Of a stretch of DNA of 64,000 nt, positions 58,050 to 64,000 are shown piece after piece. The stretch comes from Streptomyces albogriseolus. GTDB taxonomy: Bacteria; Actinomycetota; Actinomycetes; Streptomycetales; Streptomycetaceae. The notes beneath the pieces are model-generated. The model ran no database searches. It worked only from the letters and a program-made list of their open reading frames with translations, and was not told where the DNA came from. The stretch covers positions 1 through 64,000 of the forward strand of contig BMVA01000025.1 in assembly GCA_014650475.1 (NCBI GenBank). Reading direction: 5' to 3'. Positions within the stretch are counted from its first letter, which is position 1. Every line of letters begins with the position of its first letter. The position numbers were made by a program, and so were the translations under genes.

Positions 58050-58320
58050 ACCACGCGCGGCGTCAGACGGAGCGTCGGGCCGGTTCGGGCGCCCTCCGGT
58101 CGACGGAGGAGCCGGGCCTGCGAGCGGCGGCACGCCGGATCCCGATGGCCGTCCGAGTCCCCGCGAACGGCCCGTCATCACCTGACCTCGGCCCACCGGG
58201 AGGCGCGTCGGTTCAGCCGGAGGGGCGACAGAGCGCGGCGGCGGCGCGGACGAGGTCCACGGTCGGGGGTGTCGAAGCACCGTCAGACGTGTTGCGCCCG
58301 ATCACCATGTGAGACGTTCC
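58050..58320. other. Region with no recognised gene
   Basis: The 270 bp between the transporter gene and the sulfur leader promoter contain no ORF with convincing codon use or a ribosome site on either strand. It may hold the transporter terminator and upstream promoter elements, but I see no clear hairpin. Confidence 0.5.
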
Positions 58321-58325
58321 CCTCT

Positions 58326-58348
58326 TTTCCTACAGACTTACTAGGAAA
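58326..58348 (+). promoter_or_regulatory. TTTCCTA-N9-TAGGAAA inverted repeat upstream of leader peptide 1
   Basis: TTTCCTA at 58326-58332 and TAGGAAA at 58342-58348 form a perfect 7-bp inverted repeat with a 9-base spacer. The core CCTA-N9-TAGGAAA recurs with identical spacing at 61780-61799, before the second leader peptide. It is 32 bp before the leader ATG. A regulator site for both sulfur operons is the simplest explanation. Confidence 0.65.
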
Positions 58349-58379
58349 GGCTTGACGGCGTTCATGGGGGGTGCGCAGC

Positions 58380-58472
58380 ATGAGGGACATGTCCCCTGTG
58401 CAGCAGCGACTCGTACGTCGTCGGCATGTCGACTTCGGTCACGTCGTCAGCGCCGCCTGCTGTCGCGCCTGA
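58380..58472 (+). CDS. Cysteine-containing leader peptide of the first sulfur operon
   Basis: A 30-codon ORF whose second half reads RRRHVDFGHVVSAACCRA-stop. The pattern (S/R)RRH(V/I)DFGxxxSAxC(C)Rx at the C-terminus is shared with the ORF at 61824, and matches the group annotated as putative leader peptide before sulfur genes in Streptomyces. Two adjacent Cys codons (TGC TGT) sit 3 codons before the stop, where ribosome stalling on low cysteinyl-tRNA could control the genes downstream. A C-rich, unstructured stretch follows. ATG 58380 is used; ATG 58389 is an alternative. Confidence 0.7.
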   Translation: MRDMSPVQQRLVRRRHVDFGHVVSAACCRA

Positions 58473-58577
58473 AAGCTCGGCCCGTACGACGGCCGTGCAC
58501 TCCGGCCCCGTTCCCGGCTCGCACGCACCACCCCCGCGTCCGCCGGGACCCGACACCTTTGACGAGGGACTACCGCC

Positions 58578-59108
58578 ATGACCACGGCACTTCCGCACCC
58601 GGCCGCCTCGCTCCGTCCGCTGCCCGACACGCGCCACCTCCACCTGGTGGCCGACGGGGTGCGGCACGACGCCGAGGACCCCGCGTCCCCGCCGCTCGTC
58701 GGCTACCTCCTGCTGGTTCCTCAGGGCACCGATCCCCTGGACCTGTTCGCGAAGGACCGGCCGCGGCCCGAGTTCCGTCCGGCGGACGACGCCGTCAGGA
58801 TCGACACCGCGCGCCGCACCGCCGAGGTCGACGGGCGTGAACTCGACCTGACGTACCTGGAGTTCGAACTGCTGGCGCACCTCGTACGACGGCCGCACCT
58901 CGTGCAGTCGCGCGAGACGCTGGTGGCGGCCGTCTGGGGCTACGACCACGTCGGCGACGGCCGCACGGTCGACGTCCACGTCGCACGCCTGCGCCGCAAG
59001 CTGGGCGCCGCCCACCGGCGCCGGATCGTGACCGTCCGGTCCATCGGCTACAAGTACGTCCCCGACCAGCAGGAAAGCCCCCACGCCGCAGCCCGCGGCC
59101 GATCCTGA
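58578..59108 (+). CDS. Winged-helix DNA-binding protein (OmpR-type, no receiver domain)
   Basis: A 176-residue protein. The first 65 residues are unique. Residues 70-165 form a response-regulator-type winged helix: VRIDTARRTAEVDGRELDLTYLEFELLAHLVRRPHLVQSRETLVAAVWG, then VDVHVARLRRKLG and VRSIGYKYVP. No receiver domain or kinase is present, so it is not a standard two-component regulator. First gene after leader peptide 1, and 13 bp before the oxidoreductase gene, it probably regulates this sulfur operon. A direct ligand is possible. Confidence 0.82.
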   Translation: MTTALPHPAASLRPLPDTRHLHLVADGVRHDAEDPASPPLVGYLLLVPQGTDPLDLFAKDRPRPEFRPADDAVRIDTARRTAEVDGRELDLTYLEFELLAHLVRRPHLVQSRETLVAAVWGYDHVGDGRTVDVHVARLRRKLGAAHRRRIVTVRSIGYKYVPDQQESPHAAARGRS

Positions 59109-59121
59109 GGAGAGCACCGCC

Positions 59122-60348
59122 ATGTGCCCTGCCGCCGCCGCGCCGACCCGCCCCGTGTCCCCGGCCGAACCCGTCGCGGACGGCCGGGCGCACTGGCTGC
59201 GCGTGGCCCGCGAGACGGCGGACGACCTGGCCACGGACACCGTGGACCGGGAACAGGCCGGCAAGGCCCCGGTCGACGAGGTGTCCCGGCTGCGCGAGTC
59301 GGGTCTGCTGACGCTGACGCCGGCCGGGCCGGGCGGCGGCGGTGCGGACTGGGACACGGCGTACGCGGTGGTGCGGGAGATCTCCGCGGCCGACGGCGCC
59401 ATCGGACAGCTCCTCGGGTCCCACTACTTCCTGTCGTGGAGCGCCCGGTTCTTCGGGGACCCGGAGACGGCCCGGCGGACGGTGGAGCGCTCCGCGGCCG
59501 GACAGTGGTGCTGGGGCGGCGGGTTCGCCCCGCAGGACCCGCCGTTGACGCTGTCCCGCACCTCCCGCGGCCTGGTGCTCGGCGGCCGCCAGAGCTACCC
59601 GACCGGGGTGCTGGTGGCCGACCGTCTCGCCGTGCGGGCGGTGCGGGAGGACACCGGCGAACCCCTGGCCGTGACGGTGGACCCGGCCCGCCGGGGCGTG
59701 GTGGTCGACGCGGCCGGCGACACCTTCGGGCAGCGGCTCGCGGGCGGCGGCAGCGTGGAGCTCGACGCCGTGCCGGTGGGCGCCGACGACGTCCTGGGCT
59801 CGCTGTCGGGGGACGAGGACCTGGTCCCCAGGACCGCCCTGGCCGCGCCCGTCGGCCGGCTGTTCTCGGTGCAGCTGCTGCTCGGCATGGCCGAGGGGGT
59901 GCTGGCCGAGGTGCGCGAGTACAGCAGGGCGGGGCACCGCCCGTGGCAGCCCGTCCCGTCCGCCGGCGCGCCCGACGACCCGCAGGTGCTCACCGCGTAC
60001 GGCGAGCTGACCGTGCTCGCCCGCTCCGCGTCCGCGCTGTGCGACCAGGCCCTGGACGCCGTGCGGCGGGGGCTGGAGCGCGGCGAGGAGCTGACGTACG
60101 ACGAGTACGCGGACGTCTCCGCGCTGGTGTCCATGGCCGAGACGGCGGCCGCCCGGGCCGCGCAGGAGTCCGCCACCCGCGCGCTCGACATCGTCGGCCC
60201 GCGCTCGGCGTCCGCGCGGCTGGGTTTCGACCGGTTCTGGCGCAACGCCCGGACCCACACCCTGTACGAGCCCGTCGCGCACCGGCTGCGTGACGTCGGG
60301 GACTACTTCCTCAACGGCGCCCACCCCCCGTTCGTCCTGCCCGCCTGA
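59122..60348 (+). CDS. SfnB/DszC-like flavin-dependent acyl-CoA dehydrogenase-fold monooxygenase
   Basis: A 408-residue acyl-CoA-dehydrogenase-fold protein. N-terminal helices (RVARETADDLATDTVDREQAG), a flavin region with WCWGGGFAPQDPPL and YPTGVLVAD, and a C-terminal signature RNARTHTLYEPVAHRLRDVGDYFLNG, which is typical of the SfnB/DszC sulfur-acquisition branch. Those enzymes use reduced flavin and oxygen to attack sulfur compounds such as sulfones. A reductase partner is not in view. It sits between the wHTH gene and a TauE/SafE gene, behind a cysteine leader peptide, which supports a role in organosulfur use. Confidence 0.82.
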   Translation: MCPAAAAPTRPVSPAEPVADGRAHWLRVARETADDLATDTVDREQAGKAPVDEVSRLRESGLLTLTPAGPGGGGADWDTAYAVVREISAADGAIGQLLGSHYFLSWSARFFGDPETARRTVERSAAGQWCWGGGFAPQDPPLTLSRTSRGLVLGGRQSYPTGVLVADRLAVRAVREDTGEPLAVTVDPARRGVVVDAAGDTFGQRLAGGGSVELDAVPVGADDVLGSLSGDEDLVPRTALAAPVGRLFSVQLLLGMAEGVLAEVREYSRAGHRPWQPVPSAGAPDDPQVLTAYGELTVLARSASALCDQALDAVRRGLERGEELTYDEYADVSALVSMAETAAARAAQESATRALDIVGPRSASARLGFDRFWRNARTHTLYEPVAHRLRDVGDYFLNGAHPPFVLPA

Positions 60349-60378
60349 CCCCTCGGGGACCGTATCCAAGGACATGTC

Positions 60379-61161
60379 GTGACCTGGTCCACCGGACTCG
60401 CCGGACTGGCCGCGGGCCTGGTCATCTCGGTGGCGACCACGCCCGCGGGGGTGTCCGGCGCGGTGTTCCTGCTGCCGGTGCAGCTCAGCGTCCTCGGGGT
60501 GCCGAGCCCCGCGGTCACGCCGACGAACCTGCTGTTCAACGTGGTGGCCGGGCCCGGCGCGCTGCTGCGGCACCACCGCGCCGGCCTGCTGCGCGACCCG
60601 CTGACCCGCCGTCTGGTGAGCGGCACCCTGCCCGGTGTGGTCGTGGGCGCCGCCGTGCGGGTGTTCGCCGTACCCGGGGCCACCGTCTTCCGGCTGCTGA
60701 TCGCCGTCCTGCTGGTGCCGCTCGGGCTGTGGCTCGTCCGGCGCACGGTGAGACCCGCCCGTCCCGCCGGGAGCGCGGAGCCGTCGCCGCGCGCCGTGAC
60801 CGGGCTGGCCCTGGCGGTCGGCGTCGTCGGCGGGGTGTACGGCATCGGCGGCGGCTCGCTGCTCGGGCCGCTGCTGGCCGGGCTGGGCATGTCCGTCGCA
60901 CGGGTGGCGCCGGCGGCGCTGGCCTCGACCTTCGTCACCTCGGTGGCGGGCGCGGCCGCCTTCGCGCTGCTGTCCCTGGCGGGCGCCGGCGACGTGGACC
61001 CGGACTGGTACCTGGGACTGGCCTGCGGGCTGGGCGGGCTGATCGGCGGGTATCTCGGCGCGCGGCTCCAGTCTCGCCTGCCCGAGACCGGGCTGCGTCT
61101 GCTGCTGGGCTCCCTCGCCACCGCGGTGGGCGTCCTTTACGCCGTGCAGGCGCTGGGCTGA
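60379..61161 (+). CDS. TauE/SafE family sulfite or organosulfur permease
   Basis: A 260-residue membrane protein with about eight helices. Both halves show the TauE/SafE pattern: VTPTNLLFNVVAGPGALLRH in the first, and GVVGGVYGIGGGSLLGPLLAG with TFVTSVAGAAAF in the second. The family moves sulfite, sulfoacetate and related anions across the membrane. Here it would export sulfite from, or import substrate for, the SfnB-like enzyme 30 bp upstream. GTG start at 60379 is supported by AAGGA before it. Confidence 0.85.
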   Translation: MTWSTGLAGLAAGLVISVATTPAGVSGAVFLLPVQLSVLGVPSPAVTPTNLLFNVVAGPGALLRHHRAGLLRDPLTRRLVSGTLPGVVVGAAVRVFAVPGATVFRLLIAVLLVPLGLWLVRRTVRPARPAGSAEPSPRAVTGLALAVGVVGGVYGIGGGSLLGPLLAGLGMSVARVAPAALASTFVTSVAGAAAFALLSLAGAGDVDPDWYLGLACGLGGLIGGYLGARLQSRLPETGLRLLLGSLATAVGVLYAVQALG

Positions 61162-61225
61162 CCGCCGGTTCAGCGGCCCCGACCGCGGGTGGAGGGCGGC
61201 GCGGGCCGTGCGGGATAATGTCGGC

Positions 61226-61684
61226 ATGCGGATCTCAGCCAGGGCGGACTACGCGGTACGCGCCGCGCTGCAACTCGCGTCGTCCGGGGACGGCGGGCCG
61301 CTCAAGGCCGAGGCGATCGCCGACGCGCAGGACATCCCGCACAAGTTCCTGGAGAGCATCCTCAACGACATGCGGCGGGGCGGGCTCGTGGTGAGCCAGC
61401 GCGGCGGGAACGGCGGGTACCGGCTGGCGAAGCCCGCCGACGCGATCAGCATCGCCGACGTCATCCGCGTCGTGGAGGGTCCGCTGGTCTCGGTGCGCGG
61501 CGTCCGCCCGCCCGAGCTGTCCTACTCCGGTCCCGCCGAGTCGCTGCTGCCGCTGTGGATCGCGCTGCGGTCGAACGTGCGCCAGATCCTGGAGGGTGTG
61601 TCCCTCGCCGATGTGGCGTCGTCCCAACTCCCGGCCGGGGTGGCCGCGTTGGCGGACGCCCCGAAGGCCTGGGTGAATCCCTGA
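61226..61684 (+). CDS. Rrf2 family regulator without cluster cysteines (CymR-like)
   Basis: A 152-residue Rrf2 regulator. The HTH is MRISARADYAVRAALQLA, then AEAIADAQDIPHKFLESILNDMRRGGLVVSQRGGNGGYRLAKPA, the wing with its GGNGGY loop. There is no cysteine in the whole protein, so an iron-sulfur cluster of the IscR or NsrR type is excluded. CymR, which represses cysteine genes in Bacillus, is also a cluster-free Rrf2 protein. Its place at the end of a sulfur operon suggests it senses cysteine status and binds the repeated CCTA-N9-TAGGAAA elements. ATG 61226 was chosen to begin MRISARADYA. Confidence 0.87.
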   Translation: MRISARADYAVRAALQLASSGDGGPLKAEAIADAQDIPHKFLESILNDMRRGGLVVSQRGGNGGYRLAKPADAISIADVIRVVEGPLVSVRGVRPPELSYSGPAESLLPLWIALRSNVRQILEGVSLADVASSQLPAGVAALADAPKAWVNP

Positions 61685-61775
61685 TTCCGGCCGCCGACCA
61701 GGTGTTTCTCACCATGTGAGCGAACGGCGTCCATCATATGAGCAGCCTCTTGGGGCAGGGGCTGCTTTCTGCCAC

Positions 61776-61809
61776 GATCCCTAGCAGTCAGGTAGGAAAA
61801 CTAGGGATC
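61776..61809 (+). promoter_or_regulatory. Nested inverted repeats upstream of leader peptide 2
   Basis: The outer arms GATCCCTAG (61776-61784) and CTAGGGATC (61801-61809) are a perfect 9-bp inverted repeat. Inside, CCTA (61780-61783), 9 bases, and TAGGAAA (61793-61799) repeat the element before leader peptide 1 with identical spacing. Its right edge is 14 bp from the leader ATG. Confidence 0.7.
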
Positions 61810-61823
61810 CACAGGGGGTGGCC

Positions 61824-61925
61824 ATGACCGCGCGTCCGTTCGACGTCGCCGCACGCCTCCTGCTGACCTCGCGCCGCCACATCGACTTCGGCCGCACGTC
61901 CAGCGCCATCTGTCGGCCGGCCTGA
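61824..61925 (+). CDS. Cysteine-containing leader peptide of the sulfonate transporter operon
   Basis: A 33-codon ORF, MTARPFDVAARLLLTSRRHI, then DFGRTSSAICRPA-stop, with one Cys codon 4 codons before the stop. A GGGGGTGG ribosome site precedes it. It shares SRRHIDFGRxSSAxCRxA with the peptide at 58380. The 190 bp that follow are rich in C and poor in G in places, which would suit Rho-dependent attenuation, and they contain no other gene; the ABC transporter gene starts at 62116. Confidence 0.75.
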   Translation: MTARPFDVAARLLLTSRRHIDFGRTSSAICRPA

Positions 61926-62115
61926 GGCCCCGCCGGAACCGCGCCCGCGGCCGTCCGCGCCTTCAGCCCGCTCACCCCGCACCGCACCCGCACACCGGAC
62001 ACGGCCGCCTCCCGTCCCCGCGAGGCAGGCCCGACGGCCGTGCGGGCGGACGCCCCTGAGCACACGCCGTACGCCGGCATCGTCCCGAAACGCCCTTTCC
62101 CGAGAGGACACCTCT

Positions 62116-63222
62116 GTGTCTGCCGCACGACCGCTCACCCTCCTGCGCACCGTCGCCGCCCTGGCGGCCCTCCCGCTCCTGCTCACCGCCTGCGGCTACG
62201 GTTCCGACGCCGAGGACGACGCCCCGCAGGCCGAGGTCGCGGCGGACGCGAAGAAGCTCTCCGCCTCCGAGGTGAAGATCGGCTACTTCCCGAACCTCAC
62301 GCACGCCACCGCCCTGGTCGGCGTGCAGGAGGGCCTGCTCCAGAAGGAGCTGGGCGGCACCAGGATCAAGGCGTCGACGTTCAACGCCGGTCCGTCCGAG
62401 ATCGAGGCGCTGAACGCCGGGTCCATCGACATCGGCTGGATCGGCCCCTCCCCGTCCATCAACGGCTACACCAAGTCGGCCGGCAAGAACCTGCGCATCA
62501 TCAGCGGTTCGGCCTCCGGCGGCGTGAAGCTCGTGGTGAACCCGGACAAGATCAAGACCTTGGACGACCTCAAGGGCAAGAAGATCGCCACCCCGCAGCT
62601 CGGCAACACCCAGGACGTGGCGTTCCTGCACTGGATCGCCGAGAAGGGCTGGAAGGTCGACGCCCAGAGCGGCAAGGGCGACGTGTCCGTGGTGCGCACC
62701 GAGAACAAGATCACCCCGGACGCCTACAGGTCCGGCTCCGTGGACGGCGCCTGGGTGCCCGAGCCCACCGCCTCCAAGCTGGTCGCGGACGGCGCGAAGG
62801 TGCTGCTCGACGAGTCCGACATCTGGCCGGACAAGAAGTTCGTGATCACCAACATCATCGTGTCGCAGACCTTCCTCGAGGAGCACCCGGACGTCGTCGA
62901 GGCCGTGCTGCGCGGCTCGGTGAAGACCAACGCGTGGATCAACGCCCACCCGGACGAGGCCAAGGCGTCCGCGAACAAGGCGCTGGAGAAGCTGTCCGGC
63001 AAGGCCCTGCCGGCCGAGGTCCTGAACCCGGCGTGGGAGTCCATCACCTTCCTCGACGACCCGCTGGCCTCCACCCTCGACGCCCAGGCGGCGCACGCGG
63101 TGTCGGCCGGTCTGCTGGAGAAGCCCGACCTGAAGGGCATCTACGACCTCGAGCCGCTGAACAAGGTCCTCAAGGCCGAGGGCAGGCCCGAGGTCGACGA
63201 CGCCGGGCTCGGCGTCCGCTGA
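62116..63222 (+). CDS. Sulfonate/taurine-type ABC transporter substrate-binding lipoprotein
   Basis: A 368-residue lipoprotein. The signal and lipobox end at LLLTACGYG (Cys near residue 27). The mature SsuA/TauA-like domain reads VKIGYFPNLTHATALVGVQEGLL, FNAGPSEIEALNAGSIDIGWIGPSP, and GKKIATPQLGNTQDVAF. It would capture an organosulfonate outside the membrane for uptake. GTG 62116 follows GAGAGGA. The gene lies behind a cysteine leader peptide and in front of the matching ATPase, so the transporter should be induced in sulfur limitation. Nitrate-binding NrtA shares the fold, but the context favours sulfonates. Confidence 0.88.
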   Translation: MSAARPLTLLRTVAALAALPLLLTACGYGSDAEDDAPQAEVAADAKKLSASEVKIGYFPNLTHATALVGVQEGLLQKELGGTRIKASTFNAGPSEIEALNAGSIDIGWIGPSPSINGYTKSAGKNLRIISGSASGGVKLVVNPDKIKTLDDLKGKKIATPQLGNTQDVAFLHWIAEKGWKVDAQSGKGDVSVVRTENKITPDAYRSGSVDGAWVPEPTASKLVADGAKVLLDESDIWPDKKFVITNIIVSQTFLEEHPDVVEAVLRGSVKTNAWINAHPDEAKASANKALEKLSGKALPAEVLNPAWESITFLDDPLASTLDAQAAHAVSAGLLEKPDLKGIYDLEPLNKVLKAEGRPEVDDAGLGVR

Positions 63223-63260
63223 CCCGTCCTCGATCCGACGAGACCCAGGAGGTGACGACC

Positions 63261-64000
63261 ATGGCCACCACGACGGCCGGCACGGCCGAGGACACCACGA
63301 CGACGGCGTACGCCGCACGGGTCGAGCACGTCTCGAAGTCCTTCCCCGCTCCGGGCGCCCCGGGCGGACGGCAGCTCGTGCTGGACGACATCACCCTCGA
63401 TGTCGCGCCCGGCGAGTTCGTCACCCTCCTGGGCGCCTCGGGGTGCGGCAAGTCCACCCTGCTCAACCTGGTCGCCGGGCTCGACCGGCCGTCCGCCGGC
63501 ACGATCGGCACCGACGGCCGGCCCGCCCTGATGTTCCAGGAGCACGCCCTGTTCCCGTGGCTGACCGCGGGCAAGAACATCGAACTCGCCCTGAGACTCC
63601 GCGGGGTGGGCAAGCCGGAGCGCCGCCAGGAGGCGGATCGGCTGCTGGAGCTGGTGCGGCTGAAGGACGCGCACGGCAAGCGGGTGCACGAGCTGTCCGG
63701 CGGCATGCGCCAGCGCGTCGCCCTGGCCCGCGCGCTCGCCCAGGACAGCCGGCTGCTGCTGATGGACGAGCCGTTCGCCGCGCTCGACGCCATCACCCGG
63801 GACGTGCTGCACGACGAACTGACCCGGATCTGGCGGGAGACGGGCCTGTCGGTGCTGTTCGTGACGCACAACGTGCGCGAGGCGGTACGGCTCGCCCGGC
63901 GTGTCGTCCTGCTGTCGTCCCGGCCGGGCCGTATCGCCCGGCAGTGGACGGTGGACCTGCCGCAGCCGCGCCGTCTGGAGGACGCCGCCGTCGCGGAGCT
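63261..64000 (+). CDS. Sulfonate-type ABC transporter ATP-binding protein, partial
   Basis: The first 246 codons of an SsuB/TauB-type ATPase; no stop before the window end. Walker A is LLGASGCGKSTLL, the Q-loop MFQEHALFPWLTAGKNIELALRLRG, the signature LSGGMRQRVALARAL, Walker B LLLMDEPFAALDAITRD and the H-loop VTHNVREAVRL. It energises import with the binding protein 38 bp upstream; a permease gene is expected just beyond the edge. The ATG follows an AGGAGGTGA ribosome site. Confidence 0.9.
   Translation, partial: MATTTAGTAEDTTTTAYAARVEHVSKSFPAPGAPGGRQLVLDDITLDVAPGEFVTLLGASGCGKSTLLNLVAGLDRPSAGTIGTDGRPALMFQEHALFPWLTAGKNIELALRLRGVGKPERRQEADRLLELVRLKDAHGKRVHELSGGMRQRVALARALAQDSRLLLMDEPFAALDAITRDVLHDELTRIWRETGLSVLFVTHNVREAVRLARRVVLLSSRPGRIARQWTVDLPQPRRLEDAAVAE

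Follow-up and report, generated by a model that had tools for sequence, protein, structure and literature searches.

Putative cysteine-codon leader peptides of one kind ahead of sulfur genes in Streptomyces albogriseolus

We analyzed a 64,000-nucleotide (nt) stretch of DNA from Streptomyces albogriseolus (contig BMVA01000025.1; "the window"), the far end of which consists of two sulfur gene groups with one short open reading frame (ORF) ahead of each, here called leader 1 and leader 2. Leaders of this kind are already known, being modeled as NCBIfam NF042934 and studied in mycobacteria. New here, from comparison of related sequences, are the conservation of the peptide itself, a Cys codon fixed nine residues past a conserved Asp (position D+9), and the use of UGU for that codon, and the same comparison shows how the leaders are related, which genes they serve, that selection acts at the level of the peptide, and that a C-rich segment follows the stop codon. 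We consider it probable, leaving the output step aside, that translation of the leader senses the supply of cysteinyl-tRNA (Cys-tRNA). If this is true, a large bacterial class to which antibiotic producers also belong has, for its sulfur genes, a common cysteine gauge based on translation, and one codon can be enough for it. The retained UGU and its set distance from the Asp replace a loose idea about leaders with clear predictions for point mutations, and the D+9 rule provides an explicit way to find leaders that score below current hidden Markov model (HMM) cut-offs.

Two leaders and their relatives

The two leaders, given with their strand, are as follows.

58389..58472, plus strand: leader 1, 27 amino acids (aa), MSPVQQRLVRRRHVDFGHVVSAACCRA followed by the stop codon; probably leaderless; present in 26 of 80 loci
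61824..61925, plus strand: leader 2, 33 aa, MTARPFDVAARLLLTSRRHIDFGRTSSAICRPA followed by the stop codon; NF042934, 28.0 bits

An earlier note on this DNA had described two short ORFs that share a motif, precede sulfur genes, and carry Cys codons near their stops. Both ORFs lie in the frames it named and carry the motif. The window has two instances of RRH[VI]D[FLY] at most 25 residues from a stop, as against none in 60 shuffles, so that they are not a product of chance. The encoded peptides read RRHVDFGHVVSAACCRA and RRHIDFGRTSSAICRPA, each followed by the stop. Leader 1 has its Asp codon at 58431 and two adjacent Cys codons, UGC at 58458 (D+9) and UGU at 58461 (D+10), while leader 2 has its Asp codon at 61884 and a single Cys codon, UGU at 61911 (D+9). 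The genes 3' of both leaders look sulfur-related by their family matches (SfnB/DszC-like, TauE/SafE, SsuA, and a taurine/sulfonate-type ATPase), as the note had it. What did not stand is the first start codon, which we place at 58389 and not at 58380, because the ATG at 58380 overlaps the probable -10 element of the promoter given below.

58352..58381, plus strand: putative operon 1 promoter, TTGACG (58352-58357), 18-nt spacer, CAGCAT (58376-58381); read by eye
61750..61778, plus strand: putative operon 2 promoter, TTGGGG (61750-61755), 17 nt, CACGAT (61773-61778); an aligned block in relatives, by eye

The in-frame ATG at 58389, which is kept in 26/26 relatives and has TTGAC at most 60 nt on its 5' side in 24/26, lies 7 nt past the -10, so that the transcript would be leaderless; leader 1 is thus probably leaderless, as judged from these sites. 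For leader 2, a Shine-Dalgarno (SD)-like AGGGGG at 61813-61818 and a putative promoter about 39 nt upstream, which would leave a 5' untranslated region (UTR) of about that length, speak against a leaderless start.

Leader 2 passes NF042934 (titled "putative leader peptide", type cis_reg_atten) with 28.0 bits against a curated cut-off of 27; in the genome-wide search it scores 26.6 bits, or 27.3 with its in-frame neighbors. It falls below the cut-off of 45 in NF042936 (Ms4527A, 24.5 bits) and in NF042933 (Ms5788A, 14.1 bits). Leader 1 fails both NF042934 (13.5-14.1 bits, cut-off 27) and NF042936 (17.4 bits, cut-off 45) and is unlisted by NF042933 (cut-off 45); we term it a relative and not a member because it is below the cut-off of every model. 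By these scores and the shared motif, leader 2 is a member of the NF042934 kind and leader 1 a close relative.

The genome of this strain holds ten such leaders, seven of them NF042934 matches above cut-off and three lower-scoring ORFs that are built alike (leader 1 and a pair of an RRHVDY type). Nine of the ten precede genes of actual or possible sulfur metabolism, namely a cysteine dioxygenase, a ThiS-like protein with a pyridoxal-phosphate (PLP) enzyme, a sulfite reductase, an SDF-family symporter (which we take to be linked to cystine), a rhodanese, a flavin mononucleotide (FMN) reductase whose identity rests on a 102-aa piece, a Cys/Met PLP enzyme, and the two window operons; the tenth is an orphan that faces the cysteine dioxygenase operon. 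The two RRHVDY leaders (L016, 1486-1560; L017, 1495-1569) are similar, both beginning their motif with RRHVDYVRV and having one Cys codon (UGU). One of them precedes the Cys/Met PLP enzyme and is oriented away from the FMN-reductase leader, and the other is the orphan, which converges on the operon of cysteine dioxygenase.

Within the genus, NF042934 members above cut-off are present in 21/21 genomes searched; when matches up to an E of 0.01 are counted, the number per genome is 4-16. Above cut-off the model matches in 7 of 149 genomes of the phylum, versus a bait-found leader with Cys at D+9 in 41 of 60 class regions (see below), the two genome sets being different. Within the genus, loci for leader 1 were taken from relatives of the operon 1 regulator, of which 80 were kept among 535 listed, nearly all named Streptomyces; some contigs are short. 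Of these 80 loci, 26 have leader 1 upstream and 54 do not, one of the latter (L108) being without any sequence there. A DszC-like gene accompanies 24 of the 26 versus 1 of the other 54, and SsuA 15/26 versus 1/54. That the leader travels with the regulator was ruled out, because in the other 54 loci, L108 with its missing upstream DNA among them, a scan ahead of the related regulators gave just one different leader type 368 nt away (L113) and one pattern artefact (L131). Among SsuA relatives, the closest 17 have leader 2 ahead of them in 14 cases and the next 13 in none, and 29 distinct sequences of its type were collected.

A conserved peptide with UGU nine residues past Asp

Peptide-level conservation was measured on the 29 leader-2-type sequences; the search pattern fixed columns -6, -4 to 0, and +9, and diversity is quoted for free columns. 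Over codons -20 to -8 diversity is even across codon positions 1, 2, and 3 (0.42/0.48/0.47), and over codons +1 to +8 it falls to 0.17/0.11/0.24. In the class set described below, columns outside the pattern are also nearly invariant, with Leu at -7 in 40/41, Arg or His at +3 in 41/41, and Ser or Thr at +6 in 40/41. As far as comparison of these codons can tell, the peptide itself, beyond its Cys codons, is under protein-level selection. Conservation at this level would also be expected of a small protein acting in trans, a reading we regard as very improbable: the conserved part comprises only the approximately 17 C-terminal residues while the N terminus is free, the ten copies in this genome are unlinked and stand mostly just ahead of sulfur genes, and UGU is kept over UGC, which protein function would not need.

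The Cys codon is fixed relative to the Asp. Among 66 short ORFs (sORFs) with the motif, from loci picked by the regulator or by SsuA and with no leader model, 64 have Cys at D+9, and both exceptions are of one type, with Cys at +5; the 66 form orthologous sets and are not independent. When loci chosen by HMM are added, D+9 Cys is found in 105/111, with a single Cys after the Asp in 45 of the 105, but these loci are biased, since the last position of the model is the sensor Cys, and the 66-sORF and class sets are less so. The codon at D+9 is UGU in 78/105 leaders and, by majority, in 41 of 47 distinct types, over a background of 9% in the window (13/146 codons) and 12.5% in relatives (186/1483). 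Within the genome of the strain it is UGU in nine of the ten leaders, the exception being leader 1.

Because of the bias of the HMM-chosen loci, the class-wide set was built with a different bait, the sulfite reductase protein encoded in this genome. A search of 148 class genomes matched 112; for 60 of the 101 matches outside the genus, picked by hand and mostly from the top of the list, a region of about 660 nt spanning the start of the gene was examined. A motif sORF is present in 44 of the 60 regions, and all 44 contain Cys; it stands at D+9 in 41/44, and in all 41 of these the codon is UGU and never UGC. In 24 of the 41 there is no other Cys after the Asp; counted over all 41, Cys codons at places other than D+9 comprise 15 UGC and 9 UGU. 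The wobble base carries 2.0 bits of information at the sensor Cys versus 0.03 bits at the invariant Arg. The class background, from 20 genomes, is 102 UGU among 646 Cys codons (16%), with a single-genome maximum of 8/19. The 41 leaders reduce to 26 distinct D-to-C 10-mers and are therefore not 41 independent events. On the antisense strand a D+9 Cys occurs in 2 of the 60 regions, and in 300 kb of other sequence, both strands, we found no tight-motif sORF and 12 with a wide motif, one of them with Cys and none with it at D+9.

Leader 1 carries an additional constraint at the nucleotide level, as judged by its alignment with relatives. Identity at wobble sites is 0.89, the figure for the following gene being 0.75 (4 of 20000 draws); the GC content of third codon positions is 0.66 versus 0.87, with rare A/T-ending codons kept. 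RNAalifold predicts a three-way junction whose closing stem includes the Cys codons, and in two of three sequences only 5-6% of codon-permuted versions fold equally well. Taken together these features would suit ORFs that are untranslated and conserved as DNA or RNA structure, a reading that would apply to leader 1 only and that we hold to be the least likely of those considered. None of 31 predicted pairs has changed on both sides, variable wobble sites fall on 2 of 12 paired versus 5 of 8 open positions (p 0.052), and leader 1 is less stable than approximately 94% of codon-usage-random versions; the leader-2 type and the class set, furthermore, vary at wobble sites while the peptide is kept. 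A conserved RNA structure within the leader 1 ORF is hence suggestive and not claimed, there being no covarying pair, a p of 0.052, and a stability that is not clearly special; because the structure tests are weak, we claim nucleotide-level constraint only.

After the stop codon and the proposed mechanism

Both leaders are followed by the C-rich sequence that the earlier note had pointed out, and it turns out to be a property of the family.

58473..58577, plus strand: C-rich, G-poor segment after the leader 1 stop, candidate Rho-loading region; first 100 nt with 45 C and 28 G
61926..62115, plus strand: C-rich, G-poor segment after the leader 2 stop, candidate Rho-loading region; first 100 nt with 55 C and 28 G

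Across 47 leader types the C-minus-G excess after the stop is 0.196, versus 0.060 in 240 other 5' regions predicted by simple rules (p 7e-15), and of the 41 class leaders 40 have more C than G there; by composition, the segment has the C-rich, G-poor trait of a Rho-utilization (rut) site. A terminator scan gave no intrinsic terminator-like site 3' of either leader stop, in agreement with the note; its single match, at 61747-61761 (0.4 expected), is upstream of leader 2. Attenuation of the Trp type by an intrinsic terminator is ruled out by the absence of such a site after the leaders, and a riboswitch or other known RNA by the absence of any Rfam match up to E 0.5. The sensor codon lies three codons ahead of the stop in 63/105 leaders and 0-5 codons ahead in 94/105. 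The rho gene is present in this genome, and a second Rho-like protein is encoded at C4:211337-212431 (L222; its 468.8 bits fall short of 509.45, the cut-off of TIGR00767).

The earlier note's proposal that the Cys codons report Cys-tRNA supply agrees with the genes served, the fixed codon, its position, and the mycobacterial relatives, yet it gives an incomplete picture, since there is just one Cys codon in leader 2, selection acts on the peptide as well, and the codon is mostly UGU. We infer that the leaders are translated, that ribosomes stall on them, in which direction the genes respond, and by what output. RNA polymerase would start at or just ahead of the leader with a ribosome following, and the ribosome would translate the conserved R-R/L-H-V/I-D-L/F/Y-x-R and then meet the Cys codon (mostly UGU) nine residues past the Asp. 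With Cys-tRNA short, it would wait at that codon, usually 3-4 codons before the stop; as the sensor codon is so near the stop, the footprint of the waiting ribosome would cover the stop and the beginning of the C-rich segment, and the operon would stay on. With Cys-tRNA plentiful, the ribosome would finish and leave, the C-rich RNA would be exposed, and expression would drop, most likely through Rho. Such an output fits, by analogy, that of Escherichia coli tna, with a Cys codon replacing the stop codon as stall site.

For the output step Rho is the foremost candidate, at a little under even chances; an effect on translation of the next gene appears distinctly less likely, and some other output slightly less likely still. 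Translation attenuation would mean that a ribosome stalled on the leader frees the ribosome-binding site of the next gene while transcription is not stopped. It is the mode given for the cysteine genes of Mycobacterium smegmatis in the relevant passages of PMC13236596, and PMC9031893, in a passage of the same kind, has regulation act on translation of downstream genes. In 5/21 operon 1 and 2/14 operon 2 sequences the SD is buried more deeply than in 95% of shuffles, with CCTTC-GAAGG pairing in several relatives. Pairing is not above shuffles in the remaining 16/21 and 12/14, however, and the mean SD figures (0.21 versus 0.24 in shuffles, and 0.30 versus 0.33) are not clearly in favor of hiding. 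Moving the modeled ribosome from the stop to the Cys codon opened the SD by >0.1 in 0 of 21 sequences and closed it in one; static folding models of this kind are crude. The operon 1 spacer, furthermore, ranges between 41 and 157 nt in the 25 relatives for which it was measured, and for leader 1 no helix beyond the stop shows changes in both of its arms. General SD sequestration was rejected, the mean not being above shuffles and the ribosome-mask model having no effect.

How one codon could suffice is a question to which we offer a tentative answer. The anticodon of tRNA-Cys is GCA. The preference for UGU would be accounted for if wobble decoding by tRNA-Cys slows the step, and the conserved peptide if it lowers the readiness of the ribosome at the Cys step. 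It is possible, though we would give it rather less than even weight, that the peptide L-V-x-R-R/L-H-V-D-L/F/Y-x-R in the exit tunnel sensitizes the ribosome at a wobble-read UGU at D+9. Such a single-codon gauge might, with the same reserve, be a class-wide hybrid of codon-starvation attenuators and arrest peptides, its sign possibly reversed at cysteine dioxygenase.

Several observations weigh against Cys-tRNA sensing as set out above. A single Cys codon (leader 2 and 24 of the 41 class leaders) would give a weak starvation signal unless amplified, and the D+9 codon of leader 1 is UGC and not UGU. Sixteen of the 60 class regions have no motif sORF, and 3 of 44 class leaders break the D+9 rule (L255 and L261, with UGU at D+10; L281, with Cys at +5 and +7 only). 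A sigma-70 consensus scan of 58200-62130 gave no promoter, both promoters having been read by eye. In the static fold, placing the ribosome at the Cys codon versus the stop hardly altered SD pairing, and on sequence alone both Rho-dependent termination and a translational switch are proposals. The sharpest puzzle is a conserved leader, RRVHMDLxRYAGCxCRPSC followed by the stop, that precedes cysteine dioxygenase (identified by Pfam), a catabolic gene: if on when Cys-tRNA is short, it would have cysteine degraded when short, so that either the sign differs or the signal is not simply shortage.

This leader (L009, 1486-1572, minus strand; C5:31742-31798 in this genome) has counterparts of its type in eight more loci of the genus (L178, L179, L182, L208-L211, and L218), with a similar gene after the leader in several, read by eye, Pfam having been run for L009 only. 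With cysteine dioxygenase as bait, 9 of 148 class genomes matched, all from the same genus.

The cysteine dioxygenase leader would suit a sensor like TnaC, in which the nascent peptide and the ribosome detect abundant free cysteine (or a thiol) and arrest signals plenty. Consistent with this, the peptide is conserved at a fixed distance from one codon and a rut-like segment follows; in the portion of the TnaC study concerned (PMC8429421), Asp16 is functionally important and Pro24 occupies the P site when the ribosome is stalled, a spacing of eight residues that equals that from the Asp to the pre-Cys residue here. We nevertheless consider a TnaC-like sensor unlikely: most genes served are for acquisition or synthesis and would be expected on under cysteine scarcity, a fixed and mostly UGU Cys codon indicates decoding, and the spacing match is one number.

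Known systems, neighboring genes, and further leader types

Canestrari (2020), known to us through citing papers, reportedly described cysteine-responsive polycysteine leaderless sORFs in mycobacteria. Passages of PMC13236596 and PMC9031893 relay that work as cysteine control of translation in M. smegmatis; together with those of PMC9094748, which treats such mycobacterial sORFs as regulatory, they present the mycobacterial relatives as Cys-responsive attenuators, and an excerpt of PMC4633059 contains an earlier proposal of Cys-rich attenuating upstream ORFs (uORFs) in mycobacteria. The leaders described here resemble the polycysteine sORFs in having Cys codons near the stop and sulfur or cysteine genes downstream, and leader 1 would also do so in its start if, as is probable, it is leaderless. 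They differ in having no poly-Cys run, with two adjacent Cys codons in leader 1 and one in leader 2, and leader 2 has an SD-like site and a putative 5' UTR. Leader 2 shares the motif and the Cys placement of NF042934, whose title names no mechanism.

Cys leader peptides without terminators had been predicted by Seliverstov in 2005 (PMC1262725) for Mycobacterium, P. acnes, and B. longum, with Rho weighed, according to its section on cysteine. Cys codons near the stop, the absent terminator, and the suggestion of Rho are common to those leaders and ours; the former have Cys runs, in contrast to the conserved peptide and single, mostly UGU codon here, and that section names no Streptomyces leaders. 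An extract of the S. lividans reannotation (PMC8079986) gives eight leader peptides, none assigned to cysteine. The uORFC-8-2 ahead of cysS in Rhodobacterales, as described in part of PMC8632094, likewise has Cys codons ahead of a cysteine gene but a presumed intrinsic terminator with stems, and UGC dominates there whereas UGU does here. TnaC of E. coli tna, in the portion of PMC8429421 cited above, has an important Asp eight residues before the P-site residue, a rut site after the stop, and a Rho output, which for the present leaders is a proposal; it stalls at a stop codon on free Trp, whereas the presumed stall here is at a sense Cys codon. Comparison shows that here, as in TnaC, the spacing between conserved residues and the presumed stall codon is fixed (64/66 and 41/44), and terminator and antiterminator hairpins with a U-run, as in Trp-type attenuators, are absent after either leader. 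In the open-access literature searched, as far as the excerpts go, the Asp-x8-Cys geometry with UGU was not found, and it may be in the primary mycobacterial paper.

The remaining features of this end of the window are listed below.

58327..58347, strand not assigned: palindrome TTCCTA-N9-TAGGAA, directly 5' of the operon 1 -35; candidate operator for a sulfur regulator
58578..59108, plus strand: operon 1, winged-helix DNA-binding protein with an OmpR-type C-terminal domain (Pfam PF00486, 84.7 bits)
59122..60348, plus strand: operon 1, DszC/SfnB-like flavin monooxygenase (NF043015, 213.8 bits; TIGR04022, 209.4 bits; both below cut-off)
60379..61161, plus strand: operon 1, TauE/SafE-family permease (PF01925, 117.2 bits)
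61226..61684, plus strand: Rrf2-family regulator after operon 1 (TIGR00738, above cut-off; NF047409 CymR, 85.6 bits, below cut-off)
62116..63222, plus strand: first gene of operon 2, SsuA-family sulfonate-binding lipoprotein (TIGR01728, 207.9 bits, above cut-off)
63261..64000, continuing past the window, plus strand: operon 2, ATP-binding cassette (ABC) ATPase of the taurine/nitrate/sulfonate type (best model NF008421, below cut-off; PF00005)

The first gene of operon 1 thus encodes an OmpR-type DNA-binding domain, the receiver domain having no Pfam match in 58578-59108. CymR and IscR are the nearest models for the Rrf2-family regulator. The sequence TTCCTA-N3-9-TAGGAA has one copy in this genome, the site at 58327-58347, and a like sequence stands at this position in most operon 1 relatives, read by eye. 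At 61776-61809, GATCCCTAG...CTAGGGATC flanks the putative operon 2 start and is not a palindrome in relatives. Either site may be bound by a sulfur regulator, for which the Rrf2 protein would be a candidate.

Three further kinds of ORF resemble the leaders. One type, ending approximately in QQRLVSRDHIDFGRVWSAAC(C/R)A and the stop with UGU at D+9, lies upstream of operon 1 in relatives, on the other strand, and was found by a pattern that demanded the D+9 Cys; its loci, all on the minus strand, are L093 (3192), L094 (3318), L095 (4615), L096 (1412), L097 (1485), L098 (1336), L100 (4039), L101 (4602), L102 (4681), L103 (3358), L104 (519), L105 (4615), L106 (4176), L109 (3395), and L110 (3630). 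A luciferase-like monooxygenase comes next in both loci tested (L093 and L101). In the window itself, a 31-aa ORF at 58213-58308 (minus strand), divergent from leader 1, ends in VDLVRAAAALCRPSG and the stop, with UGU at D+9 and 13.6 bits in NF042934; seemingly no gene follows it, it was not seen in L088-L120, and we regard it as a remnant or chance. Variant leaders with Cys at D+5 and none at D+9 (R-L/R-HIDL-x-RVCSA) occur in L088 (7712), L089 (7610), and L170 (229, minus strand), where they precede a protein without assigned identity; upstream of those in L088 and L170 stands CCTA...TAGG, which resembles the operon 1 palindrome.

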